Below, piece by piece: positions 13,353 through 45,436 of a stretch of 64,000 nt of DNA. The stretch comes from Pseudanabaena sp. FACHB-1998. GTDB lineage: Bacteria > Cyanobacteriota > Cyanobacteriia > Pseudanabaenales > Pseudanabaenaceae. A model generated the notes under the pieces. It saw only the letters and a list, made by a program, of their open reading frames with translations, was not told the origin of the DNA and searched no databases. Location of the stretch: contig NZ_JACJQA010000033.1 in the NCBI RefSeq assembly GCF_014696355.1, forward strand, positions 62,001-126,000. The letters are read 5' to 3'. Made by a program: the position numbers and the translations under genes. Numbering within the stretch: position 1 is the stretch's first letter; every line of letters starts with the position of its first letter.

Positions 13353-13396
13353 TTTCACAGGGTGAAATTATTCTACAGGCTGACCCGTGAGTAAGT

Positions 13397-23817: not shown

Positions 23818-24684
23818 GTGGATTTAAGTAGTTTATTTGATACACCAAAACCCGTAATTGGGGTCATTCACCTTTTGCCATTGCCGACTTCGCCTCGTTG
23901 GGGGAGTAGCCTTAAAGAGGTCATTGATCGTGCCGAACAGGAAGCTACAGCGCTTGCCGCAGGCGGAGTGAATGGGATTATCGTTGAAAATTTTTTTGAT
24001 GCTCCGTTTACAAAAGATCGCGTTGATCCTGCGGTAGTCAGTGCCATGAGTCTGGTTGTCCATCGGGTCAAGCAGATGGTTGGGATTCCCGTGGGCATCA
24101 ATGTTCTGAGAAATGATGGTCATAGTGCAATGGCGATCGCTTCCTGTGTGGGCGCGAAATTTATTCGCGTTAACGTGCTTATGGGCGTAATGGCAACCGA
24201 TCAAGGCATTATCGAAGGTGATGCTTACAAACTGCTGCGCTATCGTCGGGAACTAGGCTCCGATGTCAAAATTTTTGCCGATGTGCTAGTTAAACACGCA
24301 CAACCGATCTCAGTGCCACAAATTACGGCGGCTGTCTATGACACGATCCATCGTGGGCTAGCCGATGCGGTAATTTTGTCAGGCTGGGCAACGGGAAATC
24401 CGCCAACCTCAGAGGATCTCAGGGAAGCCAAGCTTGCCTGTGGTGACACGCCTCTCTTTGTTGGCTCGGGCGCAACTTGGGAGAATGTTCCTCAACTCAT
24501 GGAATATGCTGATGGCGTAATTGTCTCTAGTTCGCTGAAGCGCAATGGTCAAATTCAACAATCGATCGATCCGATCAGGGTTAGTCGATTTGTGGATGCT
24601 GTGCGTTTAGATATTGCCAATAAGAAGAACAAGCATATAGCTGAATCCCAAATCCTGCGATCGCCCACCATACCGATTGGGTAA
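23818..24684 (+). CDS. btpA: BtpA family photosystem I biogenesis protein
   Basis: The 288-residue protein has the BtpA/SgcQ TIM-barrel pattern: VIGVIHLLPLPTSPRWG at residues 9-25, GGVNGIIVENFFDAPF near 49-64, GINVLRNDG, and the phosphate-binding LFVGSGATWENVPQLMEYADGVIVSSSLK near the end. In Synechocystis BtpA is a peripheral thylakoid protein that stabilises PSI reaction-centre proteins, especially at low temperature. It starts at GTG 23818. Other PSI genes (psaF, psaJ) are 6 kb downstream but separately transcribed. Confidence 0.93.
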   Translation: MDLSSLFDTPKPVIGVIHLLPLPTSPRWGSSLKEVIDRAEQEATALAAGGVNGIIVENFFDAPFTKDRVDPAVVSAMSLVVHRVKQMVGIPVGINVLRNDGHSAMAIASCVGAKFIRVNVLMGVMATDQGIIEGDAYKLLRYRRELGSDVKIFADVLVKHAQPISVPQITAAVYDTIHRGLADAVILSGWATGNPPTSEDLREAKLACGDTPLFVGSGATWENVPQLMEYADGVIVSSSLKRNGQIQQSIDPIRVSRFVDAVRLDIANKKNKHIAESQILRSPTIPIG

Positions 24685-24788
24685 AATCTTAATATATGGT
24701 TATGGCAATTCTAAATGATTGGTATAAGCGCAACTCCTTCGGGAGTGTGTTTATACAAGACTGAAAAATACAGATGATTGAGATTGCT

Positions 24789-24861
24789 ACTCCCTTCCCA
24801 GTGAAGAATTAGACGTTGCGGCGCGAAGCGCCGCAACGTCTAATTCTTGGTTTTAGGAGTA
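24789..24861. repeat. MITE-like element with 21-bp perfect palindrome, loop GAA
   Basis: Left end TACTCCCTTCCCAG (24788-24801) is the intact TIR. The inner palindrome 24804-24824/24828-24848 (AAGAATTAGACGTTGCGGCGC) is perfect. The right TIR is reduced to TTTTAGGAGTA. It is preceded by GATTGCTAC, as at 33111. Confidence 0.85.
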
Positions 24862-24882
24862 TATATAGCTTTTTAATTTCGC

Positions 24883-25809
24883 TTGGGACTATTAGCACTA
24901 TTAGCAGGTAGGTATAAATTGTCAGGAACAGCTACGCGCAAACGATCTGAGCCATGGTTGCATCGGTGGTCGCGCCCTGCGATCGCGGCAATATCACTAT
25001 TTGGCTTTTCTTTAACAACTTATTTAACTGTTACTCACTTTCTAGGACAACAGGTAGCCCTTTGCAATGTTGAAGGCAGTGGTTGTGACCTAGTCCTTAG
25101 TAGTGAATACGCCAAAATTTTTGGAATTCCTCTCCCAATTTTTGGAGCCTTGGGCTATCTCACACTAGGGCTATTAGCGACTACACCCTATATTTTAAAA
25201 AAAGACGACCCTAAATCCCAAAACCAAATCAAGGAAGTATCAGCTTTCTTGATGTTTATGGTGTCGTCAGCCACCTTTGTATTTAGTGGCTACCTCATGT
25301 ATTTGTTGGCTTCAGGGAGTATTGGCGGCAAACCTCAGTTTTGTATTTACTGCATCACTTCAGCCCTCAATATGACCTTGATCTGGCTGCTGACCGTGTT
25401 TGGCAATGCTTGGAAAGATATTGGTCAGTTATTTTTTACGGGTGCGATCATTGCGATCGTCACCCTGACAGGTACGCTAGGGGTTTATGCCAGTCAGGGC
25501 AAACTAGCGGCTCAGAGAAATACCTTTGCGGGGCGCTTGGCAGTACATCTAACGGAAACCAATGCCAAGATGTATGGAGCCTATTGGTGTCCGCACTGTA
25601 TGGATCAGAAGAAAAAATTTGGCGAAGCTCAAAAGTTGATCCCCTATGTGGAGTGTGATGCTAAGGGTGAGAAGCCTCAACCTGAACTCTGCGCTCAAAA
25701 GGGGATTAAAGGTTATCCAACTTGGGAAATCAATGGCAAAATGCTCTCTGGTGAGCGATCTTTAGATGAATTAGCCGATGCCTCTGGCTATACAGGCGAT
25801 CGCAATTAA
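24883..25809 (+). CDS. VKOR-thioredoxin fusion protein
   Basis: Residues about 25-190 hold four or five membrane helices of bacterial vitamin K epoxide reductase, with the loop cysteines CNVEGSGC (about 57-64) and the quinone-side CIYC (about 153-156). Residues about 220-308 hold a thioredoxin-like domain with active site CPHC (about 238-241). Such fusions oxidise cysteines of secreted or lumenal proteins and pass electrons to quinone; cyanobacterial and plant LTO1 homologues support PSII assembly. The frame starts at TTG 24883, immediately after an in-frame stop, with no good ribosome-binding site, so the start is uncertain. Confidence 0.92.
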   Translation: MGLLALLAGRYKLSGTATRKRSEPWLHRWSRPAIAAISLFGFSLTTYLTVTHFLGQQVALCNVEGSGCDLVLSSEYAKIFGIPLPIFGALGYLTLGLLATTPYILKKDDPKSQNQIKEVSAFLMFMVSSATFVFSGYLMYLLASGSIGGKPQFCIYCITSALNMTLIWLLTVFGNAWKDIGQLFFTGAIIAIVTLTGTLGVYASQGKLAAQRNTFAGRLAVHLTETNAKMYGAYWCPHCMDQKKKFGEAQKLIPYVECDAKGEKPQPELCAQKGIKGYPTWEINGKMLSGERSLDELADASGYTGDRN

Positions 25810-25817
25810 TACCCACA

Positions 25818-25901
25818 GATAAAAGTGCATAGCATTTTTATCTATGAAAAATCACACTAAAAAAAGTCCGTGCTTTGCACGGACTTTTTTTAGTGTGATT
25901 T
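25818..25901. terminator. Hairpin pair between convergent genes
   Basis: A 12-bp stem (25818-25843, one mismatch) is followed by a perfect 25-bp palindrome 25849-25873/25877-25901, loop TTT, with internal A7/T7 tracts. The right arm includes the stop codon of the minus-strand gene. Confidence 0.85.
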
Positions 25902-26757
25902 AGAAAAATACAACCCTTGTATCAAAACCTTGGCGGCGAATTGTGCCATTTAGGGTCTCGGCACTAGGGCGATCGGGAAAACCCTGCACCTCAATATAAG
26001 TACCGCGATAGGAGGAGCGTAATTGAGCATTGGGGGCGATCGCCTGCACTCTTTGCAATTCCGACACTGAGCCTGTAGGAATAATCACAAAATAGCGTAA
26101 TTGGGCATTATTCACATTGCCCTGATTAGCGCTAGAAATAGTCTGTGGTGGGCTTTGAATGGGTATAGACTGGCTAGGCTGGGGAATTGGCTGAGGCGAT
26201 CGGACAATTTCGATCGCATTATTATTGGTATTATTCGGAAAATCCGAATTAGGAACTCCCGGCAAAGCATCATTAGTCCTAGATGTAGGAATAGGAATTG
26301 ATTCCACAGGAATCGGTACAGAACTTTGCGGCAAAGGATTAGAACTTGGAATATTAGGGACTGGATTTACAGGGGATGGGCTAGGAATAGAAGGGATTGT
26401 CGCAAATTTACTCTGCACGGTGCGTATTTGGGGCGCAAGCCCCGCCTGACTAAATTGAGAAGCCCGCCGCTGCGCTAAATTTAAATTATTAAAACGACCT
26501 AACTGCACTACCTGTTCGCCCGTATCGAGACGGCTTACAAAAGCATCTGGGGCTAAAATTTTGGCTTGTTTAATATTTGCCGCATTAGGCAAATAGACAA
26601 GGTATTGAGTAGGGCCAGTATTTGCTTGATTAACTGGTGAAGAATCATTAGGAAAAGATTGAGCCTTTGCAGGGGCGCTAAAATTGGCGCTAATACTCAC
26701 CAGAGATATTAGTCCAAAGGCAAAACTACGAAGATGTGTGGATGTGTGGGGTCTCAT
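25900..26757 (-). CDS. Secreted protein with two SPOR-like domains
   Basis: From ATG 26757 the product has 285 residues. An N-terminal signal peptide (LRSFAFGLISLVSISANFSAPAKA, cut near AKA) is followed by a first SPOR-like unit (QYLVYLPN...QLGRFNNLNLAQRRASQFSQAGLAPQIRTV), a Pro/Ser/Asn-rich linker of about 100 residues with NTNNNA, and a second unit (RYFVIIP...VQGFPDRPSAETLNGTIRRQGFDTRVVFF). SPOR domains bind denuded peptidoglycan at division sites; whether this one does is inference. An upstream in-frame start at 26853 would bury the signal peptide, so the later ATG is chosen. Confidence 0.7.
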   Translation of the reverse strand: MRPHTSTHLRSFAFGLISLVSISANFSAPAKAQSFPNDSSPVNQANTGPTQYLVYLPNAANIKQAKILAPDAFVSRLDTGEQVVQLGRFNNLNLAQRRASQFSQAGLAPQIRTVQSKFATIPSIPSPSPVNPVPNIPSSNPLPQSSVPIPVESIPIPTSRTNDALPGVPNSDFPNNTNNNAIEIVRSPQPIPQPSQSIPIQSPPQTISSANQGNVNNAQLRYFVIIPTGSVSELQRVQAIAPNAQLRSSYRGTYIEVQGFPDRPSAETLNGTIRRQGFDTRVVFF

Positions 26758-26911
26758 ATGCTTGCCCGCCAAGGGGAGCGAAAAACAAAATTGGGCGAGA
26801 ACGAAATTGGGCGCGATTGTACCATACTCTAATTGTAAAGACTTACTTTGCATGTTTTAATCATCAAGACTATTTTTGGTATTTTTTGGCAAGAGTTCTG
26901 CAATTTAATAG

Positions 26912-26964
26912 AGAAACAGATTTTTGATAGCGCAGCTTCGCTGCGCTATCAAAAATCTGTTTCT
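26912..26964. repeat. 25-bp perfect palindrome, loop TTC
   Basis: Arms 26912-26936 and 26940-26964 (AGAAACAGATTTTTGATAGC..., core GCGCAGC-TTC-GCTGCGC) lie between two divergent genes, where a terminator would not be expected. Confidence 0.92.
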
Positions 26965-27062
26965 AGTTTTACTGCGAAGTCCTAATTGCAACTTGAAGCA
27001 AGATTTGCAATTAGTTTAGCCAACGTCATTTTCATCCTTTTCATACGCATATTTAGGTAATC

Positions 27063-28448
27063 ATGGCAGTAGATCTGACCCGCGTCCAACCACCCCTCAA
27101 AGTCTATCCGCCCAAAGTTAATCAGTTGATTTTGAAGGCTATCCGCTTCGTAACGCCCTTTTGGCTGCGGTGGCAATGTGGCATTAAGCAGATTGAAACT
27201 CGCTATGTCGATCGCCTTGTCGAAGCGACCAAACAATTTCAAGAGGGCAAAGCGCGTTATATCATCGCCTTTCGTCACCCGACCACTGATGATCCCTTTG
27301 GGATGTTGTATTTACTAGTCTATGCAGTCCCCGAGCAAGCAAGGGCTATGGGGATTAAGCTCAAACATACACCCCATAGTGCTTTTGTGTACGATCGCGG
27401 GATTTCTCTATGGGCAGGAGACTACATCAATTCGCTATTTCCCGCTTTAGGCGGAATTTCGATCTTTCGGGGCAAGCTGGATCGTCCAGCCCTAAATTTG
27501 ATGCGAAAGCAAATTACCAATGGTGATGAACCCCTCTCCATGGCTCCAGAGGGTGGTACTAACGGTAAGAGTGAAATGGTAGCTGAATTAGAACCAGGAG
27601 TAGCTCAGATCGGCTTTTGGGCGGCCGAAGATTTGCTCAAGGAAGGACGGAATGAGGAAATGTTAATCATTCCTGTGGGAATTCAGTACGAATATTCCTT
27701 GGCATCTTGGGCGGCGATTGACGAGGCGATCATGGCGATCGAAAAAGAATGTGGCTTAACTAAGTCCGCCATTAGCACTGAAACTCGCTATCAAAGACTC
27801 TATGAACTAGGTAGTTATTTAGTGCAATGGGTCAGCAATTATTACAAAACTTTTTATCGTAATTACGCGCCGAGGGAATCTGAATTTACGGATAGCGATG
27901 ATATTGCTATTCGCATTGATGATCTCACCGATCGCATCCTTAGTGTTGCCGAAATGAATTTTGGCATAAAGGCAAAAGGAACCGCCATTGATCGCTGTCG
28001 TCGTCTGGAGCAAGCGGCTTGGGATCGCATTTTTCGTAATGACATTAAAGATATTGAGCAGTTGTCGCAGATTGAGCGGAGCTTTGCTGACCAGCTTGCC
28101 CTCGAAGCAAATTACAGCAATTGGCACATGAAAATTGCCGAAAGTATTATCGGGGTCACCAGTGATTATGTGCGCCAACATCCCAGCCCCAGTCGCTACA
28201 TTGAAGTGATTAAACTCATGTGGAGTGTCCTCAGTCGGGTGACCGAACGCGATCCGAAATCTACTTTTAAACAATCTCCTAACTTTGGCGATCGCAAGTT
28301 GTATCTTTCAATTGCAGAGCCTCTTTCTGTATCCTCAAGGCTTGCCGAATATCAATCTAGCCGCAACGCCGCCAAAGAATGCACCCGCAAACTCACGGAA
28401 GAAATTTCCAAATCCCTCAATGACCTCCTTGTAAAATCAATAATTTAA
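27063..28448 (+). CDS. PlsC-like 1-acyl-glycerol-3-phosphate acyltransferase domain protein
   Basis: The 461-residue protein has a PlsC-type acyltransferase domain: FRHPTTDDPFG (H-x4-D motif) near residues 71-81, GGISIFRGKLDRPALNLM corresponding to the glycerol-phosphate binding block, and MAPEGGTNGK near 160 for the EGT motif. Family members transfer acyl groups to glycerolipids in membranes. The C-terminal 250 residues are a charged helical extension, without obvious membrane helices, of a kind found in cyanobacterial homologues of about 450 residues. The substrate is not determined. Confidence 0.8.
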   Translation: MAVDLTRVQPPLKVYPPKVNQLILKAIRFVTPFWLRWQCGIKQIETRYVDRLVEATKQFQEGKARYIIAFRHPTTDDPFGMLYLLVYAVPEQARAMGIKLKHTPHSAFVYDRGISLWAGDYINSLFPALGGISIFRGKLDRPALNLMRKQITNGDEPLSMAPEGGTNGKSEMVAELEPGVAQIGFWAAEDLLKEGRNEEMLIIPVGIQYEYSLASWAAIDEAIMAIEKECGLTKSAISTETRYQRLYELGSYLVQWVSNYYKTFYRNYAPRESEFTDSDDIAIRIDDLTDRILSVAEMNFGIKAKGTAIDRCRRLEQAAWDRIFRNDIKDIEQLSQIERSFADQLALEANYSNWHMKIAESIIGVTSDYVRQHPSPSRYIEVIKLMWSVLSRVTERDPKSTFKQSPNFGDRKLYLSIAEPLSVSSRLAEYQSSRNAAKECTRKLTEEISKSLNDLLVKSII

Positions 28449-28476
28449 CCAAAAGATATGCTTTGAGTCTATTTTG

Positions 28477-28509
28477 CAGAGAAAGGCGGCAAAATGCGCC
28501 GCCTTTCTC
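28477..28509. terminator. 13-bp perfect hairpin after convergent genes
   Basis: Arms AGAGAAAGGCGGC/GCCGCCTTTCTCT (28477-28489, 28497-28509). The last base overlaps the tsaD stop codon. Confidence 0.8.
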
Positions 28510-29534
28510 TATATATATAAGCTTTGGCAATCTTCGAGATTAAGCCGCGATCGCGTAGCAATACTCATTGATGAAGTCTCGCCTCTGGCAAGGTGAATCG
28601 CCCCAGCACAACCAATCATCGCCGCATTATCCGTACATAAACTTAAGGGTGGAAACACTGCCTTAATCTGGTTTTCCGCCGCCAACGTCACCAGCCGCGA
28701 TCGCAAAGCACTATTTGCTGCCACCCCACCAACTGCCACAATGGTCGATAAATTATGCTCGATCGCGCATTTAATCGTGCGCGTCACCAAAGCCGCCGCC
28801 ACCGTTTCTTGGAAACTCGCCGCAATATCGGCGATCGGCAATGGCTCACCATTGGGGCTGAGCTTTTGAGTTAGCCTCAAAACTGCGGTTTTCAGCCCGC
28901 TAAAACTCGAATCATAGGGCGCTTCAGGAATTCGTCCCTGTGGTAATTTGTACGCCTTGGGATTACCCGCGATCGCCATCTTGTCAATAACGGGTCCTCC
29001 GGGGTAGCCTAAACCCAGCAGACGCGCCACCTTATCAAAGGCTTCACCTGCGGCATCGTCACGGGTTTTACCCATCACTTGATAATCGGTGTAATCCTTC
29101 ACCAGAATAATGCTGCTATGTCCGCCAGAAACTAATAGACATAAAAAAGGCGGCTCTAAGGTGGAATCGGCAAGTAAAGCCGAGCAAATATGCCCCTCAA
29201 GGTGATGCACCGCAATCAAAGGCTTTTTGTGTAACATTGCCAAGGTTTTTGCCGCAGTCACCCCAATCATCAGCGAACCAATCAATCCCGGAGCCGTTGT
29301 CACCGCAATTCCATCGATCTCATCCCAAGTTTTGCCTGATTCTTGATATGCTTGGGCGATCGCAGGATTAATCGTCTCCACATGCTGACGGGCGGCAATT
29401 TCAGGCACAACCCCACCATACAGAGCATGGGTTTGAATTTGCGAAGAAACTACACTACTGAGAATTTGGCGATCGCATACCACTGCCGCCGCAGTTTCAT
29501 CGCAGCTAGATTCGATCGCAAGAATAGTTGGCAT
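28509..29534 (-). CDS. tsaD: tRNA N6-adenosine threonylcarbamoyltransferase TsaD
   Basis: The 341-residue ASKHA-fold enzyme transfers threonylcarbamoyl to A37 of ANN-decoding tRNAs (t6A). The N-terminal [16 protein letters not shown], the metal-binding HHLEGHICS (His pair near residues 110-114), VSGGHSSI and [11 protein letters not shown] motifs are all present, and length is standard. A Sua5/YciO family protein that could supply or relate to the threonylcarbamoyl-AMP step lies at 59791-60462, unlinked. TsaB and TsaE are not seen. Confidence 0.96.
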
Positions 29535-29544
29535 TTTTAATCAA

Positions 29545-29593
29545 AATTAAGATGATGTAACGTGAACTTCGTTCACGTTACATCATCTTAATT
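29545..29593. repeat. 23-bp perfect palindrome, loop TTC
   Basis: Arms 29545-29567 and 29571-29593 (AATTAAGATGATGTAACGTG...) lie upstream of both divergent genes tsaD and psaF, so they are not positioned as a 3' terminator. Confidence 0.9.
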
Positions 29594-29727
29594 AATAAAT
29601 TACTTTACAGGTTGTGAAGATTGCTTTACCAAGGCGCGATCGCTGATATAGGATCTGAACTTAGGTTCCCAAACTAAAATATCGTTATTTTTGCCTATCT
29701 TAAACCAAGGTAAATCAAGGTCAGTCT

Positions 29728-30303
29728 ATGAAAAGACTTTTTGCTCTCATTCTAGTTATTAGCTTGTGGTTTGGCATTAGCCTTGCTGCAACCCCTGCCG
29801 CATACGCAGACTTCTCTTTCAACGCATTGACTCCCTGTGCTACTTCTTCTGCTTACCAAGATCGCTTGCAATCAGAAGTTGATGGCTACACCGCACGTCT
29901 CGCTAACTTCAAAGCGGGTAGCGCTCCTGCGGAATACCTCAACGGTAAAATCGCTCAAACCAAAGCTCGCTTTGCCAAGTATGCTGATTCTGGCTTGCTT
30001 TGCGGTGAAGATGGCTTACCTCACTTGATCAGTGATGGTCGTTGGGATCGCGCAGGCGAATTCACCATTCCTGCATTGTTGTTCCTCTATATTGCAGGTT
30101 GGATCGGCTGGGTTGGTCGTGCTTACCTTATTGCCATTCATAAGGATGTTGCAACCGCCACTCAAAAGGAAATCATTATCGATCTTCCTCTTGCCGTACA
30201 GTGTATGCTCACTGGTTTCGTTTGGCCTCTTGCTGCTCTCAAAGAATTTGGCTCTGGCGAATTGTTAGTTCCTGAAAACGAAGTTACTGTTTCGCCTCGC
30301 TAG
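29728..30303 (+). CDS. psaF: Photosystem I subunit III PsaF
   Basis: The 191-residue precursor has a lumenal signal peptide ([24 protein letters not shown]) cut before [10 protein letters not shown], the conserved mature start of PsaF. The two cysteines (LTPC..., [12 protein letters not shown]) and [21 protein letters not shown] transmembrane segment are hallmarks. PsaF is peripheral to the PSI core, contacts PsaJ and, in some organisms, helps donor docking. It is followed 33 bp later by psaJ, in the usual psaFJ operon. It is about 25 residues longer than most cyanobacterial PsaF, partly in a charged lumenal helix region and at the C-terminus. Confidence 0.96.
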
Positions 30304-30336
30304 TCAACATCCCTCACATCTAAAAGGAGAACTCCC

Positions 30337-30453
30337 TTGAAAGACTTTTTATCATCTGCCCCTGTATTGGCTGCTGTATGGATGACCATTACTGCTGGTG
30401 TACTAATCGAAGCTAATCGCTTATTCCCAGACATGCTAACCTTCCCTCTCTAA
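30337..30453 (+). CDS. psaJ: Photosystem I subunit IX PsaJ
   Basis: A 38-residue frame starting at TTG 30337 reads [20 protein letters not shown] and continues [18 protein letters not shown]. This is PsaJ, a single-helix PSI subunit that binds chlorophyll (via Glu in IEANR) and supports PsaF. A strong ribosome-binding site AAGGAGA (30324-30330) six bases upstream supports the TTG start. Co-transcribed with psaF. Confidence 0.95.
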
Positions 30454-30519
30454 ACTAAATCAACTTGATTGAGTAAATTACGTTTTTAAAGATTGTAGTT
30501 TTTTGATGAGACTGTAAAC

Positions 30520-30646
30520 AAAATAAGAGTGGCGACACAAAGTATCGCCACTCTTATTTTTAGGATTACTTTAGAAAATAAAAAAGCCCCAATGCAATGC
30601 ATTGGAGCTTTTTTATAGCGAGTTGCGACATGAAGTGTCGCAACTC
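30520..30646. terminator. Cluster of three hairpins after psaFJ
   Basis: Three successive stems lie between the convergent psaJ and glnN: 30520-30560 (16 bp, core GTGGCGA), 30578-30616 (about 18 bp, with A6 and T6 ends, loop AAT, a good bidirectional terminator) and 30620-30646 (11 bp, GAGTTGCGACA). Confidence 0.85.
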
Positions 30647-30704
30647 ATTTTCTGCTTTTTGTGTCTTAACAAGAATAGCAATAGCTATAGATTGAAATTA
30701 GAAA

Positions 30705-32879
30705 TTACTTGATGAAAAGCATTTCTTGATAGGTAGGCAATGGCCATAGATCGTCAGCAATTTCGCCTTCAAGGGTATCTACAAAGCCACGAGTAGTATC
30801 CATCAGAGGACGAACAGTATGGGCAATAAACTGCATATGCTCTTCAGGAGACGCAAAATCGTGATTACTGAGGGCTGCACTCAACTTACTGACACTATCT
30901 AACATTGACTTGGTAAGAGAAGCAATTTTCTCAATGCTTTCCTTATCAAAATCAACACCAACCTCTTTAAGGCTTAGAGAAGTGTTAGACAGATCCGCCA
31001 AATAACGAGTAGCCGCAGGGTAAATCAAGGTTTTTACCATACTAATTACCAGCTTAGCTTCCACTTCGATGGAGAGGATATACTGCTCAGAATAGGTCTC
31101 AAAGCGGCTAGCCAACTCAACAGGAGAGAGGACTCCCAGCTTGCTAAATAGTTCTTCAATTTCAGGTTCTTTGAGAACTGGTAAAGCATCGGCAGTTGTG
31201 CGGAGGTTGCGGAGACCACGCTCTTCGACAGCCGCTTTATGCCATTCTTCGGAGTAACCGTTACCATTGAAGATAATTGCGCCATGCAATTCCATTACTT
31301 TCTTAAGAATGGTGGTGATGGCAGCATTTAAATCAACACCCTTAGACAATTCGGCTTCTAGTTCGTCTGCCATCCAGTTTAGGGAGTCTGCCAAGACGGT
31401 ATTCATGGCAACTAGAGGTCCAGCAACGGACTGACCCGAACCAACTGCACGGAACTCGAAACGATTACCTGTGAAAGCAAAAGGAGAAGTACGGTTGCGA
31501 TCGCCAGGGTCAGTGGGCAAAATCGGCAAGGTATCAACACCAATATTCATCTGACCTTTGCCAGTAGAACTCTTGAGGTCGCCTTGACGGAGCTGCTCGA
31601 ATACATCCTCAAGTTGAGAACCTAAATAAACCGAGATAATCGCAGGAGGTGCTTCGTTTGCACCTAAGCGGTGATCGTTGCTGGCAGTCGCCACAACGGA
31701 GCGCAATAAAGGTCCGTACTTATGAACGCCACGAATAACTGCACCACAAAAGACCAAGAATTGAGCGTTGGAGTGAGGAGTATCTCCGGGGTCAAGCAAG
31801 TTGCCTTGAGTTGCGTTGCCAACTGACCAGTTAACGTGTTTACCCGATCCATTGATACCTGCAAAGGGCTTTTCATGAAGTAAACAGACAAATCCATGCT
31901 TCTTAGCGGTGAAGCGGAGGATGGTCATGATCATTTGCTGGTGATCGGTGGCGACGTTAGCCGCTTCAAATACGGGTGCAATTTCAAATTGTCCGGGAGC
32001 TACTTCGTTGTGACGAGTTTTCGCAGGAATGCCGAGGCGATACAACCGCTCCTCAACGTCTTGCATGAAAACTTGAACACGCTCAGGAATTGCCCCAAAG
32101 TAGTGATCGTCAAATTGTTGACCTTTTGCCGAAGGCTTGCCAAATAGAGTGCGACCCGCTAGCAATAGGTCAGGACGAGCATTAGCAAAGTTGGAATCTA
32201 TCAAGAAATATTCTTGCTCAGCGCCACAGCTAGAGTTAACAGGCGCAATGTCTTTTTCACCTAAGAGTTTTAAGACTTTAGTTGCAGCTTTATTCATCGC
32301 TGCATTGGAGCGCAAGAGAGGCGTTTTCTTGTCTAAAGCTTCGCCAGTCCAAGAAACAAAAACCGTAGGAATACAAAGGGTGGAACCGTTGTCGGTTTCC
32401 ATGATGTAAGCAGGGCTAGTGACATCCCATGCTGTGTAGCCCCTTGCTTCAAAGGTGGAGCGAATACCACCGTTGGGGAAGGAAGAACCGTCAGGTTCGC
32501 CTTGAACTAGTAATTTGCCCGCAAATTCTGAGATTGCCGAACCATCGCTTTGGACGGAGATAAAGCCATCATGCTTTTCAGCAGTTGCGTTGGTCAAAGG
32601 ATAAAAGACGTGGGCGTAGTATAAAGCGCCTTTGGAGATTGCCCAATCTTTCATTGCCAATGCGATCGCATCTGCTACGGAACTATCGAGGGGTTCACCA
32701 GTTTGAATGGTTTTTTTGATTGATTTGAAGACTGTCTTAGGGAGACATTCTTGCATTTTGCTTAGAGTAAACACATCAGTTGCCCAAACCTCTTCCAATC
32801 GTTTTGGCGCTTTCTTCGGGAGTGGCTCGCGATTGGTGATTTGATAAATGGCTTGAATGCGCGACTCGTTTCCGCTCAT
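30705..32879 (-). CDS. glnN: Glutamine synthetase type III
   Basis: The 724-residue enzyme is GSIII (GlnN), which condenses ammonia and glutamate. The long length and the GSIII-specific N-terminus ([21 protein letters not shown]), then catalytic blocks [48 protein letters not shown] and [14 protein letters not shown], identify it. In cyanobacteria glnN is usually induced by nitrogen starvation through NtcA and supplements or replaces GlnA; I see no clean GTA-N8-TAC site upstream. A dyad at 32951-32979 lies 72 bp upstream of the start. Confidence 0.96.
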
Positions 32880-32950
32880 GGTTGTTTTTAGGAAATACTT
32901 TTGAATTTAGTAATCATACTCAAGATAGATCTTGTAAATGGATAAAAAAG

Positions 32951-32979
32951 ATACCAAACTAATTGCAATTCATTGGTAT
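32951..32979. promoter_or_regulatory. Dyad ATACCAA-N15-TTGGTAT upstream of glnN
   Basis: Seven-base arms (32951-32957, 32973-32979) surround the inner palindrome AATTGCAATT (32961-32970), which shares almost the same centre. It could be an operator for glnN, or a remnant of the ATACCAATT repeat family. Confidence 0.4.
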
Positions 32980-33116
32980 ATCGAACCCGTCTGTCCAATA
33001 AATCCATCAAATAAAGAAAAAATAGCTAAATTCCAGTGAAAAAGCTCTATAAGAAAAACAAAAAGCTTAAGCCTCTTGTTATAAGCTTCTGTTTCTCATA
33101 ACTCCTTTAGGATTGC

Positions 33117-33278
33117 TACTCCCTTCCCAGCCAAGAATTAGCTATACGGCGCTTCGCGCCGTATAGCTAATTCTTGGCTTTTAATGTCTATTTTTAGACT
33201 GGGAAGGGAGTATAAAACCAAGAAATAGCGGTGCGTGGCTTTGCCACGCACCGCTATTTCTTGACTGGGAAAGGAGTA
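33117..33278. mobile_element. Compound MITE-like element: three TIR copies and two palindromes
   Basis: TACTCCCTTCCCAG (33117-33130) and its exact complement CTGGGAAGGGAGTA (33199-33212) enclose a 24-bp perfect palindrome (33129-33152/33156-33179, loop TTC). A second 21-bp perfect palindrome (33219-33239/33243-33263, loop TTT) follows and is closed by CTGGGAAAGGAGTA (33265-33278). There is no coding capacity. TTAGGATTGCTA (33107-33118) precedes it. No target-site duplication is obvious. Confidence 0.8.
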
Positions 33279-33311
33279 TATATATGTTGATGTTAGGAAA
33301 TAGAGAAAAGC

Positions 33312-34943
33312 ATGAAAGCGATCGCTATTGATTTTGGTAGCAGTAATACAGTGGTAGCCCGATGGAATATTGTGACTAATCAGCCTGAAACCATAATTTT
33401 TGACGATCTTAGCCGTCCTAAACCTTTAAATGCTTTGGTTCCTTCGTTAGCATTCGTACATGATGCTCAAAATGAAGTCGTAGAAATTGGTCAAAGAGTG
33501 ATTGACCGAGGCAACGATCGCCCCCAGCCAAGATTATTTAGTCAAATCAAACGCCGACTGGTCAACAATGTCAGGTACATCCCCAGAATTGACGGGATCA
33601 AAGTGACACCTGAATGGGTCGGCAATCAATTTCTGCGCGAACTCTTGCTTAAACTGCGATCGCAACAAATTTTCCCGTCAGAAATAATTTTGACTGCCCC
33701 CGTCCAAGCCTACGAAAAATATTTGCGTTGGCTAGAAGAATGTAGTGCTGAGATATGCATATCTAACTTACCCACCCTAGAGCCTCCGATGATTCGGTTG
33801 CTAGATGAACCCACAGCCGCCGCTTTAGGCTATGAAGCGATCGCCCCTAGTGTCTTAGTTTTAGTAATTGATTTTGGCGGAGGGACTTTAGATTTGTCTT
33901 TAGTACGCTTGCCTAAGAGTGAAAATGTAACCAAATGGGGCGATCGCCTTGGCATCAATCAAAGCGAATGGTCAGAACATAAAGCCGAGGCGATCGCTAA
34001 AACTGGCTATACGCTCGGCGGCGAAGATATCGATCAATGGTTGATCCAAGATTATTCCGAAAATTGTGAGGATGTAGAAAATATAACCATCATCCAAGGT
34101 TCCAGCATCCTCAAATTTCTGATGGAACGGATTAAGATCAAGCTCTCAGACCACGAAACTGCTTCAGAAATATTTTTTGATGTAACTACGCAATCAACCA
34201 CAGAGATTACCTATACTCGCGAGCAACTCCAGAAATTATTAGATCGCAAAGGTTTTTATCGAATTCTCAAGTCTGCCATTGATGAGTTGATCAACCGAGC
34301 TTTTAATAAAGGTGTTCTCAAGGGCGATATCAAAAATATTTTATTAGTAGGCGGCTGCACACTCATTCCATCGGTACGCCAGTTTATCGAAGACTATTTC
34401 ACCATGGGGAAGGTATACAGTCATAAACCCTTTGAGGCGATCGCCCATGGGGCTTTGATGCTTAGTCAGGGGATGAATGTCCAAGACTATCTGTTTCACT
34501 CCTACGCGATCCAACATTGGGATCGTTTGACCGAACAATGGAAATATCAACCCTTATTTCGGCGAGGGCAAGTCTACCCAACTCGTCGTCCCTTAGAGCT
34601 AATACTGCGAGCCACTCAACCTGATCAATCCGAAATTTCCTTAACTATCGGCGAACTTACTAGTCCCTCGAAAGGGAGTGCGGAAATTAGCTTTGAGGGA
34701 GATTGCCTTGTGATGAATTTTGAGCATCAGCCAAAGGATATTTTTCAACCGTTACAAGCAGATGGTCAGGGTGAAGGTATCCCACAGGCGATCGCCCTGC
34801 TTGAACCGCTAGGACAGCCTGATTGCGATCGCCTCAAAGTTTTATTTAGTATCAGTAACAATCGTGAGTTATTAATAACGGCGATCGATCTTCTAACCCA
34901 CAAGCAATTATTAACTAATTATCCTGCCGCAAAATTAAGATAA
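33312..34943 (+). CDS. Hsp70-family (DnaK-like) ATPase with non-canonical C-terminus
   Basis: The 543-residue protein has the actin-like ATPase fold of Hsp70: phosphate-1 AIDFGSSNTVVA (residues 4-15), connect-1 LLDEPTAAALGY near 171, phosphate-2 VIDFGGGTLDLSLV near 190 and adenosine motif ILLVGGCTLIPSVRQFIEDYF near 344. The GIDLGTT of true DnaK is replaced by AIDFGSSNT. After about residue 370 the canonical substrate-binding and lid domains are not recognisable; instead there is a beta-rich region and no EEVD-like end. Probably a specialised cyanobacterial Hsp70 relative; clients unknown. Confidence 0.82.
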   Translation: MKAIAIDFGSSNTVVARWNIVTNQPETIIFDDLSRPKPLNALVPSLAFVHDAQNEVVEIGQRVIDRGNDRPQPRLFSQIKRRLVNNVRYIPRIDGIKVTPEWVGNQFLRELLLKLRSQQIFPSEIILTAPVQAYEKYLRWLEECSAEICISNLPTLEPPMIRLLDEPTAAALGYEAIAPSVLVLVIDFGGGTLDLSLVRLPKSENVTKWGDRLGINQSEWSEHKAEAIAKTGYTLGGEDIDQWLIQDYSENCEDVENITIIQGSSILKFLMERIKIKLSDHETASEIFFDVTTQSTTEITYTREQLQKLLDRKGFYRILKSAIDELINRAFNKGVLKGDIKNILLVGGCTLIPSVRQFIEDYFTMGKVYSHKPFEAIAHGALMLSQGMNVQDYLFHSYAIQHWDRLTEQWKYQPLFRRGQVYPTRRPLELILRATQPDQSEISLTIGELTSPSKGSAEISFEGDCLVMNFEHQPKDIFQPLQADGQGEGIPQAIALLEPLGQPDCDRLKVLFSISNNRELLITAIDLLTHKQLLTNYPAAKLR

Positions 34944-34963
34944 AACCTGAAGCCTTCAGGTTT
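34943..34963. terminator. Short hairpin between convergent genes
   Basis: AAACCTGAA/TTCAGGTTT with loop GCC occupies 34943-34963, the whole space between the two convergent genes. Confidence 0.75.
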
Positions 34964-35643
34964 CATAGAGCCAACTCCAGCAAAAATCCCACACGGCTAT
35001 CGTAGATTAAAGGCGATCGCCGCCATTCAATTTTTGTCCCCAACCTGAAATTATTAGTAATGGCGTAACTAGTCGAAAGAACAGTCGTACTCATCTCCAA
35101 ATTGCCGTTAGGAGAAGTAAAAGTATGGCTCAAGCGTAAATCCGAACTATGGGGCGACAAAACCAAAATTCCTAGCAAACCTACATCTAAACCAGAAGTT
35201 TGGGGACGCTCCCATTGATTAAATTGGCGGTATCCCACAATTGGCGAAATATTCCAATAGGAACCCAAAGGCAAGAGGTAATAACGAAAGTTTGCCTGAA
35301 TTTCACTCTCGCGACCACTAAACTCAGTTTGATAGCTGCCGCTCACCGCCCAAGAAGACTGCCCCACAAACAAATCTTCAAATCCTGCTTCAAGCCCCAA
35401 AGAGTTATTACGCGATGTAATCCCAATCCTGAATTTTTTATCAAAGCTTGGCGTATTGTGGATATCTTCTAAAAGATCGGGAGGCTTTTCCAGCCAACGT
35501 CTTAATACGGGGCTACGTTCAATAATTTGGCGATCTATTTCTAACTCATCGGCTTGACGAGAGGCTCTAGGGTTGCTATGAGCCGCACTACTGAGACTAA
35601 AGTAAGCAATTATCGCTACGGCGATCGCCCATTTCTTTGTCAT
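34963..35643 (-). CDS. Putative outer-membrane beta-barrel protein
   Basis: From ATG 35643 the 226-residue product begins with a signal peptide (KKWAIAVAIIAYFSLSSAAHS). The mature part has a charged helical segment (ADELEIDRQIIERSPVLRRWL) and then alternating amphipathic strands (FRIGITSRNNSLGLEAGFEDLFVGQ, WAVSGSYQTEF, SEIQANFRYYLLP, NISPIVGYRQF, VGLLGILVLSP, DLRLSHTFTSP), ending GFLLELAL. This strand periodicity suggests an outer-membrane beta-barrel. No named family is recognised. An upstream in-frame start at 35700 would precede the signal peptide and is not preferred. Confidence 0.65.
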   Translation of the reverse strand: MTKKWAIAVAIIAYFSLSSAAHSNPRASRQADELEIDRQIIERSPVLRRWLEKPPDLLEDIHNTPSFDKKFRIGITSRNNSLGLEAGFEDLFVGQSSWAVSGSYQTEFSGRESEIQANFRYYLLPLGSYWNISPIVGYRQFNQWERPQTSGLDVGLLGILVLSPHSSDLRLSHTFTSPNGNLEMSTTVLSTSYAITNNFRLGTKIEWRRSPLIYDSRVGFLLELAL

Positions 35644-35847
35644 AAATTTCCGCAATTTCCGTGAGTTTGTGCCAAATAATTCAAAAGAAAGAAAGTACAC
35701 ACCACTAAGTTATGCACTCTAGCGCATGTTTAAGGAGGGCATACTCATTGAACAAACCGCTATGGCAAAGAACTATCAAGAGCGTATTTATAATTATCCT
35801 AGTAAATGTACATAGCAAAGTCCTATAAACAGCAAACGGAAAGAAAA

Positions 35848-37524
35848 ATGCGTAAGTTAGGTGGGATTGTCGGGTGGATTTTGCTAGTCATATCTATGGA
35901 CTTACTCCAAGTGCCTACTGGGTGGGCTTTGGATAAATCTGGCGATCGCCAAGGTATTAATGCCCGTATTTTACAAAAGCCGCCTTATAACCTAACTGGT
36001 CGAAATATCTTTGTCGGACAGGTAGAACTGAGCCGTCCTAGCCGTTTTGCCATAGACAAAATATCCAATAAGTTATTGCAACTTGATCGCGCGATCGTGC
36101 AGCCCTACGAAGTATTTTTTCGTGATGGCAAAGCTATCCCCAATCGCAATGTGGACGATCATTCAGCCCAAGTTGCAGCCGTCATCATTAGCCAACATAA
36201 AATTCGGCGCGGCATTGCCCCTGATGCAAAACTCCTTTCGTCTGCCTATTCCCAACGTCGCCAAGATGGGCAGCCTGAAGCTTGTCTGGCGGCTCAACAT
36301 GTAGCTCGACAATATAACGGTAGCGTTCGCGCCATCAATTTTAGTTTTGGTGAACTTCTCAGCGAAGACCCACGCCCCAAACCCATCCTCGATGGTAATG
36401 CCCTACTCACTCTTTGTATTGATTGGCTAGCCACCACCTATAACACCGTCCCCATCGTGGCAGGTAATCAAGGCAAAGGTGGCATCCCGATTCCAACCGA
36501 TCTATACAACGGCTTCACCGTTGGATTTACCCGCGAGTTTGATGGCATCTATCGCCAACTCGATCGAGGTAATTTAATAGATGAACCATTTCTGGATCGC
36601 AATAATAATGGCAAGTACGATCAGGGTGAAGTCTTTAGTGACCTTAATAAAGATGGCAAATGGACATCGGGCGTAGAAAGTCCCGTCGATGGTAGGCGAT
36701 CGCTTGCCCTCCTAGCCCCCGGCAATAACCTAAACCTGCCCACTCTCCAAAGCAAATTTAAGAATGCTAATGGCTCTAGTTTTGCGGCTCCCCATGTAGT
36801 TGGCGCGATCGCTCTCTTACACGAATATGCCAATCGCCAAATCGAAAGTGGACAATGGACATTAGATGCCCGTCGCCATGAACTAATCAAAGCTGTACTT
36901 ATTAATTCTGCTGACAAAATTCAAGATCGGGGCGATGGCAAAGTTTTAGGTATGTCTAAAACTATTTTGGATGCCTTTGGAAAAACATGGATTGATACCG
37001 AAGCCTATACTAATCGGGCGATTCCCCTGAGCCAGCAGCTAGGAGCAGGACAACTAAACGCCTATCGAGCTTTTCAGCAATATCAAGCAGGACAGCAATC
37101 AGCACTTAATGGGCTAGGTAATATTCAAGCGATCGGCTGGGACACAAACATAGTCGAGGTCAATCAATATCAAGACTATATATTTTCAGAGTCGCTATCT
37201 GCCGACAGTTTTATTTCTTCTACCCTAACTTGGGATCGTCAAGTCAAGTTAAATGATAAAAATGGCAATAATTTATATGACATTGGCGAAAGTTTCCGTA
37301 ATGATGGATTCAACCATCTGGAATTGTACTTAATGCGATCGCAAGATAATGACATTAACCAAAGTGTTTGGTCATCCATTAGTCAAGTAGATAACTTGCA
37401 ACACATATTTATCAAAATTCCAACTACAGGTAAATACAAACTTAGAGTTTTATTTAAATCCTCTGAGAATAATGTAATAAGTCAACGCTACGGCATGGCA
37501 TGGTGGGCAAAATATGAAAAATGA
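35848..37524 (+). CDS. Secreted subtilisin-like (S8 family) serine protease
   Basis: From ATG 35848 the product has 558 residues with a signal peptide (LGGIVGWILLVISMDLLQVPTGWA). The catalytic Ser block NGSSFAAPHVVGAIALL and the His block DDHSAQVAAVII are clear, and INFSFG and PIVAGNQG fit the oxyanion region. The usual catalytic Asp motif (DTG) is not obvious; the aligned strand reads VGQVELSRPSRF, with Glu where Asp is expected. Two DxNxDG-type calcium loops are visible (DRNNNGKYDQGEVFSDLNKDGKW and NDKNGNNLYDIGE). A C-terminal beta domain (IFIKIPTTGKYKLRVLF) resembles a pre-peptidase or P-domain. Start at 35806 is possible but less consistent with export. Confidence 0.82.
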   Translation: MRKLGGIVGWILLVISMDLLQVPTGWALDKSGDRQGINARILQKPPYNLTGRNIFVGQVELSRPSRFAIDKISNKLLQLDRAIVQPYEVFFRDGKAIPNRNVDDHSAQVAAVIISQHKIRRGIAPDAKLLSSAYSQRRQDGQPEACLAAQHVARQYNGSVRAINFSFGELLSEDPRPKPILDGNALLTLCIDWLATTYNTVPIVAGNQGKGGIPIPTDLYNGFTVGFTREFDGIYRQLDRGNLIDEPFLDRNNNGKYDQGEVFSDLNKDGKWTSGVESPVDGRRSLALLAPGNNLNLPTLQSKFKNANGSSFAAPHVVGAIALLHEYANRQIESGQWTLDARRHELIKAVLINSADKIQDRGDGKVLGMSKTILDAFGKTWIDTEAYTNRAIPLSQQLGAGQLNAYRAFQQYQAGQQSALNGLGNIQAIGWDTNIVEVNQYQDYIFSESLSADSFISSTLTWDRQVKLNDKNGNNLYDIGESFRNDGFNHLELYLMRSQDNDINQSVWSSISQVDNLQHIFIKIPTTGKYKLRVLFKSSENNVISQRYGMAWWAKYEK

Positions 37525-37569
37525 GCCATAAAAAAGCGATGCTAGGCATCGCTTTTTTATGGCTCATTT
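37519..37569. terminator. 24-bp perfect palindrome, loop TAG
   Basis: Arms 37519-37542 and 37546-37569 include the subtilase stop codon and contain A6/T6 tracts suited to bidirectional termination before the convergent DUF1036 gene. Confidence 0.9.
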
Positions 37570-37575
37570 AAGTAG

Positions 37576-38043
37576 CTAGTTAGTTAAATTCATAGTGTAG
37601 TCACTACTATCCACTTTCACTTCAAAAAATGGTCGTAACTCAGAACCATTGCGACCACACCCATCTCCCTTAGCAACATAGTTAAACTTATCGGTAGGAT
37701 GAATACAGAAATTTTGGTTAGTTGTACCTTCCCATACCCAACTATCCCCGCGATCGCCTCCATAGAGATAGTAATAGTCCCCAGCATTTAGAGCCTCTTC
37801 AACCACCACCTCACATTTCTTAGGATTAATCTCATACCATCCCTCAGAACGCCATCGATTATCCCCAAGCCCATAGGCAACCGCAATATAAGCCGTCTTA
37901 TTAGAGCGATTACACACCTTCAATTCGGCTTGGGCTGGCTCAGCTAAAGACATTGTACCGAAAGCCGCCACCACTGCACCTAAACAACCAGCCACATTTG
38001 ATAACAAAGAATGTAGCAAAAAATTAGTTTGTAGAAATTTCAT
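37576..38043 (-). CDS. DUF1036 family secreted protein
   Basis: The 155-residue protein has an N-terminal hydrophobic signal region (VAGCLGAVVAAFGTMSLAEPAQA, cut near AQA) followed by DUF1036: LKVCNRSNKTAYIAVAYGLGDNRWRSEGWYEINPKKCEVV, ...YYYLYGGDRGDSWVWEG, and paired cysteines (FCIHP, GCG). DUF1036 proteins are small secreted beta-sandwich-like proteins of unknown role. Nothing suggests an operon with its neighbours. Confidence 0.88.
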   Translation of the reverse strand: MKFLQTNFLLHSLLSNVAGCLGAVVAAFGTMSLAEPAQAELKVCNRSNKTAYIAVAYGLGDNRWRSEGWYEINPKKCEVVVEEALNAGDYYYLYGGDRGDSWVWEGTTNQNFCIHPTDKFNYVAKGDGCGRNGSELRPFFEVKVDSSDYTMNLTN

Positions 38044-38120
38044 GTTTACTCTATGACTTTAGCTAAATAAACGAGAGAACTAAACAAAATGTATGGAGTC
38101 CCCTATTTCTCTAATCAATA

Positions 38121-38158
38121 CCAATTTACTAAAGTGTAGTCACTCTTCTGTAAATTTA
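38121..38158. repeat. ATACCAATT...AGTGTAGTCAC repeat
   Basis: The sequence ATACCAATTTACTAAAGTGT followed by AGTCACTCTTCTGTAAATTT is an imperfect inverted repeat centred on AGTC. A closer palindrome of the same type is at 51031-51064, and partial copies are near 1551 and 56407. Confidence 0.6.
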
Positions 38159-38316
38159 GGAACAAACACATTGCTTTCCCAAAATAATGGGGCATCAAGA
38201 TTTTTAGATTCAAAAGATTAAAAGGCAACCTTGTAAATTGGTATTAACAATATCTAAGTAAAAATTATCCCCAAAAAATCCAATTTTTCTAAACAGGAGT
38301 ACACAGAATTTAATCC

Positions 38317-38353
38317 AATAAAAAAGGTGACGTAAAGCGCCACCTTTTTTATT
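38317..38353. repeat. 13-bp hairpin with A6/T6 ends
   Basis: AATAAAAAAGGTG/CACCTTTTTTATT around an 11-nt loop; terminator-like on both strands. Confidence 0.7.
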
Positions 38354-38359
38354 TATTGC

Positions 38360-38434
38360 TACTCCCTTCTCAGCCAAGAAATAGCAGTGTGGGGCAAAGC
38401 CCCGCACTGCTATTTCTTGGCTGAGAAGGGAGTA
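38360..38434. mobile_element. 36-bp near-perfect palindrome with TIR ends, loop AAA
   Basis: The full stem runs from TACTCCCTTCTCAGCCAAGA to its complement, so TIR and inner palindrome are fused into one 36-bp arm (38360-38395/38399-38434) with a single mismatch. It is the longest stem in the window, and also carries the CCAAGAAATAGC block of the 33219 copy. Confidence 0.88.
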
Positions 38435-38463
38435 TAGCTGTCGAGTATAAACCTCAAGAGTAG

Positions 38464-38490
38464 AGGGTGCGGCGCTTCGCGCCGCACCCT
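38464..38490. repeat. 12-bp perfect hairpin, loop TTC
   Basis: AGGGTGCGGCGC-TTC-GCGCCGCACCCT; the bare core of the palindrome family, just after the 38497 gene end on the minus strand. Confidence 0.85.
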
Positions 38491-38496
38491 AATTCC

Positions 38497-39105
38497 CTAC
38501 TTAGCGGCATTTGGACGCACAAACTGAGCGTCCACAAAACCTAACTCAAATAATTGTTGATAAGCCTGTTGACCTAAATCACGAGTTGGAGCCTGACTGC
38601 GAATCAACTGAATTAATAGAGGTACAGCTAATTCAGGCTGATTTTTAGCCCGATAAACTACCGCAAGCTGATAAGTTGCCTCATCTCGCAACTGTGCAGA
38701 TTGCAAAGCCTTACGACGATGGCTATCGGAGATCCGATTATCAATTCCCGAAAAGCTTGTCGTTAATTCCTGATAGAAATTTGATAATTGGTTAAATACC
38801 TGACGGGCATCTTGCAACTTAGTTACAGCTTGATCGTAATTTTGCTGACTAATTGCAGTCATCGACTCCGCCATCAATCGCTGACCACCCGAAATACTAA
38901 ACACACTATTCTCAAGAGAATTAGGCTTAGTTGGCTCCACAGGCTGAGCTTGGGAAGTACTTGGCTGTGATTGTACGGGCTTCTCGGTTGAAGCATTTTG
39001 AGCGATCGCTCCTAAAGGCAGCCAAGCAGCAGCGGAGATGATGGACAAAACTGCAACTTGGAAAGCAGATTGAAATGGGCGAAGCTTCACGAAAGATGTG
39101 GACAT
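38497..39105 (-). CDS. Secreted cyanobacterial protein with TPR-like helices
   Basis: From ATG 39105 the 202-residue product has a signal peptide (VAVLSIISAAAWLPLGAIAQ), a Pro/Ser/Gln-rich linker of about 40 residues, and then helices with TPR-like spacing: LMAESMTAISQQNYDQAVTKLQDA and YQLAVVYRAKNQPELAVPLLIQLI. It is probably periplasmic and involved in protein contacts. I do not recognise a named family. A GTG eight codons upstream is an alternative start. Confidence 0.65.
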   Translation of the reverse strand: MSTSFVKLRPFQSAFQVAVLSIISAAAWLPLGAIAQNASTEKPVQSQPSTSQAQPVEPTKPNSLENSVFSISGGQRLMAESMTAISQQNYDQAVTKLQDARQVFNQLSNFYQELTTSFSGIDNRISDSHRRKALQSAQLRDEATYQLAVVYRAKNQPELAVPLLIQLIRSQAPTRDLGQQAYQQLFELGFVDAQFVRPNAAK

Positions 39106-39330
39106 AGGTTGCAAATTCTGGATGCTCACAAAAAATAATGGCTATTTGATATAAACTTTGCAAGTTTTTTAGGATTTTAAAAATAACTTCTTAAAAAGCA
39201 GCAAAGTCTATAACTAAAACCTTTGGTTATGGTAACACTCCAAGCATAGACGAAACATCTACTAAAAGTTTCCAAACATAGACATTCTCAGCAATTATCA
39301 TTACTACCGTTTTTTCCTTAAATTAACGAA

Positions 39331-39422
39331 TACTCCCTTCCCAGGTATAAAAATAGGCATTAAAACCCAAGGATTAGTGGTGCGGCGCGAAGCGCCACTA
39401 ATCCTTAGGTGGGAAAAGAGTA
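39331..39422. mobile_element. MITE-like element with asymmetric palindrome
   Basis: TACTCCCTTCCCAG (39331-39344) and TGGGAAAAGAGTA (39410-39422) enclose AAGGATTAGTGG (39369-39380) and its complement (39395-39406). The left arm carries TGCGG with no counterpart on the right, so one arm lost about five bases: a rare broken copy. Confidence 0.75.
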
Positions 39423-39475
39423 GTGGGACACGGCAAAACCTTACCCCACTATTTCTTAACTAGGCACAGCAATAT

Positions 39476-39532
39476 AAATAATCTGATTTTTTTGGGTCTA
39501 AAAAAGCAATCTCTCAAAAAATCAGATTATTT
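39476..39532. repeat. 17-bp inverted repeat with 23-nt loop
   Basis: AAATAATCTGATTTTTT (39476-39492) and AAAAAATCAGATTATTT (39516-39532) are perfect complements. Confidence 0.75.
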
Positions 39533-39791
39533 ACAAAATCCCAGAGTTCTAGGATTTTATGGTTTAGCAAAAATCGTCCTTTGGGGCGCTCTTCGATCAC
39601 CTATTTAGAATTGCTATAGGAACGAATAAATTGATTGCATAGCAGACTCGTAAAAAAATGTGACATCTTGCGTGATATGCTTAGCAACGGTGTAGGCAGC
39701 TACATCCAAGTTTTTGGACACCCATTTTGAGTACTATCTCAAGTACTAGTTCTTCACTCAAATAGTCAGCAATTTTCGCTAAAAGTCAACA

Positions 39792-44919: not shown

Positions 44920-45436
44920 GGCGGTTTTCAAGATAATGAAGACCAGATCACATAAGAATAGGCATAACATTGCCATAGACTCTCAGAATTTTGAAGACTT
45001 TAAAATGACCATAATGAGTCATTAGAAACAGAATCTTATAACAAGGGGCTTAAGCGCCTTGCCTCTCTCACCAATGAAATAGGATTGCTACATTAGCAGA
45101 GAGATGGGGAAGGGAGATTTTGTTTTGCAAACTTTCAGGCTCAGGGCGGAAGTGTACCCCAGAAACGGGAAAAAGATTAAAATTAAGCTAGCAACTCTTG
45201 CCAAAAAATAAGAAGACTAACTTCTAGTGCGCTGATTGACGATAACTTGACATTTGCAAGTATGGCGCTTTTTCTTAACAGAATAAAACTGCTTTTGCCC
45301 TTGTTAACGACTTTCACATTATTTAGGAGAGTGCAAACCTTTGGATCGCACTCTCTTAAATAATTTAGAGTAGCTATATAAAAACAATAATTAGCTAAAA
45401 ACATATGATATTCAGAAAAATAATAAGCCTAACTAA
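44920..45436. other. Intergenic region with decayed element and one hairpin
   Basis: No convincing gene. TAGGATTGCTACATTAG (45080-45096) and GGGGAAGGGAGA (45106-45117) look like decayed ends of the TACTCCCTTCCCAG element. An inverted repeat with 14-bp arms (ATTTAGGAGAGTGC...GCACTCTCTTAAAT, one mismatch, 13-nt loop) lies at about 45322-45362. A possible reading frame on the minus strand (45183-45404) has no family features. Confidence 0.5.

Follow-up and report, generated by a model that had tools for sequence, protein, structure and literature searches.

The window, i.e. the whole stretch of 64,000 nucleotides of Pseudanabaena sp. FACHB-1998 that was analysed, contains dispersed copies of a short inverted-repeat element (MITE). 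As the first-pass annotation of this DNA had stated, there is no gene inside the copies. The following features were assigned, with coordinates referring to the window and copies without an assigned orientation given as unstranded:

33117-33212, minus strand: full 96-bp MITE copy with TA-ended 14-bp inverted ends, a hairpin and an IS-left-end-like spacer TTTTAATGTCTATTTTTAGA preceding the second end
33129-33179, unstranded: perfect hairpin of the 33117 copy, with 24-bp arms (33129-33152 and 33156-33179) and the loop TTC
33211-33278, plus strand: second MITE copy without left end, in which the hairpin (33219-33263) and the right end (33265-33278) are kept; L043 type
38360-38434, unstranded: 75-bp copy forming a single palindrome over its entire length, with 36-bp arms that are 97% complementary
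39331-39422, plus strand: 92-bp copy of the spacer form, right end slightly decayed
24788-24861, unstranded: copy resembling an IS630 end, right end shortened, missing from 6/6 aligned relatives
2689-2769, unstranded: copy with one good and one decayed end
13396-13467, unstranded: decayed copy with degraded ends and an intact hairpin

The stretch 33117-33278 had been described as one element, in which exact 14-bp inverted ends enclose a perfect palindrome at 33117-33212 and a second palindrome with a third end follows. Comparison of 33117-33130 with 33199-33212 showed exact reverse complements over 14 bp, and the coordinates of the ends and of the 24-bp arms were verified. The second palindrome (33219-33239 and 33243-33263, perfect 21-bp arms) and the further end (33265-33278, 1 mismatch to the 14-mer) exist as well; however, in comparison with the complete copy L043 the stretch reads as a full 96-bp copy plus a second copy without left end, rather than as one element with a third end. 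The related copies reported elsewhere in the window are present at 2689, 13396, 24788, 38360 and 39331 (some of them 1 base off), whereas the decayed ends reported near 2881 and 45106 are weak as judged by eye.

Another repeat, GCTTAAGC ... GGATTGCTA, adjoins copies at 33040-33116 and 45030-45090 of the window, and a similar one was seen at locus L018. The loci L179 and L180 and the window at 2777-2866 contain members of a second repeat family, whose ends resemble AAGTAGCTA...TAGCTACTT; the IS630-type locus L094, with inverted ends TAAGTAGTTAGACAAAATTAATTACA, may be its partner.

A search of the window with the 14-mer at up to 2 mismatches revealed 8 matches; 100 shuffles gave 0.24 on average and never reached 8. 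In the host genome (64 contigs, 4.78 Mb), 77 sites match with no more than 1 mismatch and 21 of these match exactly; the reversed control has 0 matches. Searching this genome for inverted pairs, a check that had been proposed with the original description, yielded 14 forward matches with a reverse partner within 200 bp, corresponding to elements of 75-98 bp, and no inverted pairs spaced 200-8000 bp. For the remaining ends of the host genome, inspected in part, the partner is more decayed or missing. The exact end is present in all 26 Pseudanabaena genomes searched, the reversed control in none of the genus. Outside the genus the 14-mer was detected in 33 of 312 other genomes of the class versus 13 of 312 for the reversed control; because the control matches as well and some matches read as coding, these scattered single matches are partly due to chance. 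A 36-base pattern derived from complete copies matched exactly in 11 stretches (10 from Pseudanabaena biceps O153 and 1 from P. frigida). In a genome of another family (G020), ends of this kind enclose a different interior; of these elements, L075 and L078 are complete at 106 bp.

Complete copies were compiled from the retrieved loci, with up to 3 mismatches per end and 4 in all, a length of 55-140 bp and TA required. In this set of 61 copies, which is no census, 34 are 96 or 97 bp long and 4 are 75 bp long. The 97-bp form combines an IS-left-like end TCTAAAAATAGACATTAAAA with an IS-right-like end AATTAGAC, and the 75- and 60-bp forms are palindromic throughout or nearly so. Short length, multiple copies, terminal inverted repeats and the lack of a transposase gene agree with what defines a MITE. 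At L119 (G029:C9:8000-20300) the contig reads as a fold-back around a 117-bp fully palindromic MITE, which is either an assembly artefact or a real inverted duplication.

Autonomous elements with matching ends were found in other species (L162, L141 and L146), but none in the host genome. L162, from another Pseudanabaena (G009), is an intact element of 1167 bp at 899-2065 with TACTCCCTTCCCAG at both ends and TA on both sides. Its single ORF of 368 aa contains the DDE residues D185, D269 and E313 (assigned by eye), reaches 179 bits with NCBIfam NF033545 (IS630; cut-off 100) and matches Pfam DDE_3 and HTH_33/HTH_28 above cut-off. With a DDE transposase, a TA target and inverted ends, L162 has the characteristics of the IS630 family. 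Of 30 end bases, 27 are alike in a count by eye. L141 (1501-2666, 1166 bp) and L146 (1501-2664, 1164 bp), from two genomes outside the genus, possess such ends and an IS630 transposase split over two overlapping frames; in L146, position 13 of the right end is G. A plasmid search with the L162 protein gave as its best two matches a Brasilonema IS630 transposase (55.5%) and an Acaryochloris ISAcma32-family transposase (47.6% identity), and the respective elements (L262, 296-1761, and L261, 356-1520) both end in TACTCCCTTCCCG. The MITE thus has its ends in common with L162, L141, L146, L261 and L262, all from other genomes.

The HTH half of L141 has matches in 7 of the 26 genus genomes, several of them partial and one of them the intact L162, and 0 matches in the host genome, a 64-contig draft. 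The 11 DDE_3 matches of the host genome show weak likeness to the DDE half of L141, the best being 35% over 48 aa. None of 39 DDE_3 loci inspected (11 from the host, 28 from the genus), which are a part of the matches listed, owns such ends; L091 merely adjoins L162, and L054 adjoins a MITE copy. As searches of the host genome revealed no partner transposase, the copies there may be stranded and are probably immobile at present, unless a partner is reacquired; a partner can also be hidden by the draft assembly. Longer inverted pairs considered as autonomous elements were rejected. The 1.2-kb pair at L072 (G014) consists of two MITE copies or ends flanking an ORF which, judged by eye, does not look like a transposase, the 1.4-kb pair at L114 (G029) is a MITE split by an ISAs1 element, and the pairs 5.6 kb apart at L116-L119 (G029) bound repeated stretches with the same ORFs.

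To analyse the borders, we used an 11-mer omitting TA on all sequence retrieved. TA was present on both sides in 63 of 64 distinct inverted pairs at up to 2 mismatches and in 71 of 96 pairs at up to 4 mismatches, with register-shifted duplicates making up many of the 25 exceptions; most loci had been fetched by a pattern containing TA, which biases these counts toward TA at one end. The target duplication appears to be TA alone, since the two bases beyond TA agree in 11 of the 96 pairs. For L162, the left border reads GGACAGC-TA-CTCCC, compared with GGACAGC-TA-TCATT in 6 uninterrupted copies of the host sequence (L196-L201); the right flank has no match to these copies, so that the left border alone is confirmed thereby. 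This border and the TA borders of the MITEs, the latter at loci mostly fetched with the TA-containing pattern, are as expected for a target-site duplication. Three of the 61 complete copies (L035, L072 and L180) occupy the central TA of a perfect palindrome. A preference for palindromic targets was rejected, as the excess over the 61 copies is not significant (518 of 2000 permutations were as high), and the site of L180 may be explained by the second repeat family.

Comparison of orthologous loci revealed polymorphic presence of the element. The relatives in which the copy at 24788 is missing also lack ~100 bp of neighbouring DNA. At the locus of the 33117 copy, 10 of 13 relatives have no end in the orthologous stretch retrieved, and G035, G014 and G003 have a copy there at other positions. 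The G035 copy is missing in G034, G016 and G009, and in G007 this place is taken by another repeat, whose ends are AAGTAGCTA/TAGCTACTT; this close pair of filled and empty sites is complicated by the presence of the second repeat (AAGTAGCTA...) at that spot. At another locus of the close pair G014/G003 the copy is complete in one genome and represented by 22 bp of its left end in the other. Sites without the element, another check that had been proposed, therefore exist for window copies, but not at the precision of a single base: no TA-precise empty site was found for them, their intergenic flanks being diverged and adjoined by other repeats, and for the copy L020 the relatives are too diverged to show an empty site.

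The relation of MITE ends and IS ends was analysed at positions 14-27, of which position 14 alone belonged to the search words, in 100 ends out of the 122 that the 61 copies provide; 8 copies found outside Pseudanabaena were excluded, as were 3 from Pseudanabaena that belong to later loci. Five IS ends (L162L, L162R, L141L, L141R and L151) showed on average 8.5-9.3 of 14 identical positions versus 3.7-4.2 after shuffling, which exceeds the largest of 300 shuffles in every case. L146L reached 6.6 of 14, inside the shuffle range (largest 7.2), and L146R 7.7, just over its largest shuffle of 7.5; beyond the 13-mer, the likeness is weaker to these more distant IS ends. Of the first 30 bases, 28 are equal between the window copy at 24788 and the IS end L151 (counted by eye).

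The family very probably represents MITEs, mostly of 75-98 bp, that derive from an ISAcma32-like insertion sequence of the IS630 family and would be mobilised by an autonomous relative. The copy-free orthologous loci and the autonomous elements with the same ends support, on sequence grounds, the small non-autonomous mobile element that the first-pass annotation had proposed. A complete copy carries ~30 bp of the transposon ends (TACTCCCTTCCCA and ~14 further related bases) on either side of a hairpin, which takes the place of the transposase gene. The transposase of the autonomous relative would act on the MITE, excise it and join it to a TA dinucleotide, which becomes duplicated; this movement would be of the cut-and-paste type. 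Either arm-to-arm copying or selection would preserve the palindrome of the hairpin, and the former would turn the left-end/right-end form into the fully palindromic forms.

The hairpin itself would be the recognised part if the elements were REP-like palindromes moved by RAYT, a single-strand Y1 transposase, which had been suggested as a candidate. Hairpins with short loops are common (the window has 53 inverted repeats), and the host genome contains two Y1_Tnp matches. However, no copies flank these matches within 1.5 kb, where one 13-mer end with 1 mismatch was detected, alone and ~0.8 kb off, in L259. TA-bordered inverted ends are common to the element and DDE transposons, and the hairpin is more variable than the ends across copies. 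We consider movement by RAYT highly improbable. A non-mobile host element (a bidirectional terminator or a protein site) that was spread by recombination and has ends conserved for function would be in line with terminator-like scores at the window copies (24805, 33131 and 33263), with 40 terminator rows versus 15.4 in shuffles for 24600-39600, a count in which overlapping variants of one hairpin appear separately, and with compensatory changes that indicate upkeep of the hairpin. It is very unlikely in view of ends that match those of autonomous transposons beyond the search word, of the presence and absence of copies among orthologous loci, of TA at both borders in the close pairs (63/64) and of the 106-bp elements L075 and L078 of the other family, which combine the same kind of ends with a different interior.

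The interior of the elements had been proposed to be replaceable, which is partly right: the hairpins vary among copies, arm matching arm, and other elements insert into copies. At L073 (501-809) the hairpin of a MITE copy bears a second small inverted-repeat element with ends GGGCTTCCTGAAAAAG, and at L114 (525-1937) the interrupting ISAs1 element has a 19-nt flanking repeat CTATTTTTAGACTGGGAAG.

The comparison of arms covered 48 copies whose loop is 3 nt long, 3 of them from other genera; over 22 positions the arms agree to 82% within a copy versus 63% between copies, in a set in which automatic centring misplaced at least 2 copies (L007 and L015:1501). At positions 9-11 from the loop, agreement is 90-96% within and 40-56% between copies. 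Covariation was analysed in 12 hairpins of the host genome (14 minus L007 and L015:1501), 10 of them distinct. In these, 97.5% of cells pair, versus 30-48% with a sliding partner; the hairpins were chosen by a complementarity-seeking script, which inflates the share of paired cells but does not on its own generate different pair types. Changes on both sides were observed in 11 of 20 pairs, a value reached by 0 of 500 shuffles; for further pair types, 1 of 500 shuffles reached the observed value. Read in the same element orientation, the loops of 37 oriented copies are GAA in 18, TTC in 7 and others in 4, with 8 unread. The near-identical copies L017/L019, L067/L068 and L124/L126 show 4 differences each, chiefly in the loop.

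Hairpins also occur outside the MITEs. A free-standing hairpin in G014 and G003 (L072, ~1013-1087, and L234) has 74% arm identity, changed arm with arm, between flanks that are 97-98% identical. The window (1-64000) contains 53 inverted repeats of at least 16 bp at short distances, and the 25 listed include several perfect hairpins that stand free and have a loop of 3 nt, a MITE-like GC core being present in some of them.

Tentatively, and with somewhat more doubt than conviction, we propose that the interiors of MITEs and free-standing hairpins are rewritten continually by strand switching in the palindrome, in which one arm would serve as the template for the other and the loop of 3 nt would flip. 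The sequence would diverge fast, but pairing would stay near-perfect and, in the MITE, the ends bound by the transposase would be preserved; a 97-bp left-end/right-end deletion derivative could drift to the fully palindromic forms of 75 and 60 bp. Such copying would account for the arm covariation, the loop variants and the hairpin of G014 and G003; selection on the hairpin is the alternative.

The hairpin might also be a captured host terminator palindrome, which would make the MITE a portable transcription terminator, selectively retained after insertion; this is compatible with an origin from IS630 and not opposed to it. Some free-standing hairpins (L004 and window 13773) have a GCGGCGC-type core with AAACCCAAG...CTTGGGTTTT borders, and copies have terminator-like scores. 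The outer stem of many copies is, however, already accounted for by the IS right end itself, TGAAGAATTAGAC, and the copies at 38360 and 39331 are missing from the terminator list. We regard capture of a terminator as rather unlikely.

MITEs of an IS630 element, as which we read the Pseudanabaena family, are a kind already known. The ISAcma32-family IS630 element of Acaryochloris marina (annotated in NZ_AP026078.1), whose transposase was found in the plasmid search, is 1165 bp from end to end and carries ends of the same type; in contrast to the gene-less window elements with A at end position 13, it is autonomous and has G at this position. Nezha is a cyanobacterial MITE which is likewise small, multi-copy, mostly intergenic and hairpin-forming, with inverted repeats. 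The Stowaway MITEs of plants, powered by Tc1/mariner, resemble the Pseudanabaena MITE in their TA-flanked ends starting with CTCCCT. ISY100 of Synechocystis (IS630/Tc1/mariner) is described in PMC2170065 as having a TA target with duplication and short imperfect inverted ends of 24 bp, and 30 bp of each end works in cis. By analogy, ~30 bp of each end would be enough for transposition of the MITE. ISY100 is alike in its TA target and short inverted ends and differs in its transposase of 282 aa, compared with 368 aa for L162. For Anabaena sp. 90, 147 complete or partial MITEs have been reported (PMC3542288), for which the genome contained no evident IS sharing their ends (type II). They are small, multi-copy, mostly intergenic and hairpin-forming elements with inverted repeats, similar to the Pseudanabaena MITE; in contrast to them, the latter has a matching IS in the same genus. 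A limited collection of literature did not contain the exact 13-mer, and none of the titles listed from it on cyanobacterial MITEs, IS630 MITEs and Pseudanabaena insertion sequences concerned the Pseudanabaena family.

With an IS630 element of the ISAcma32 kind, a likely engine can now be named for a multi-copy cyanobacterial MITE family, and the intact L162 transposase is at hand for testing it. The concerted change of arms and the apparent loop inversions provide many natural replicates for the study of palindrome upkeep in bacteria.
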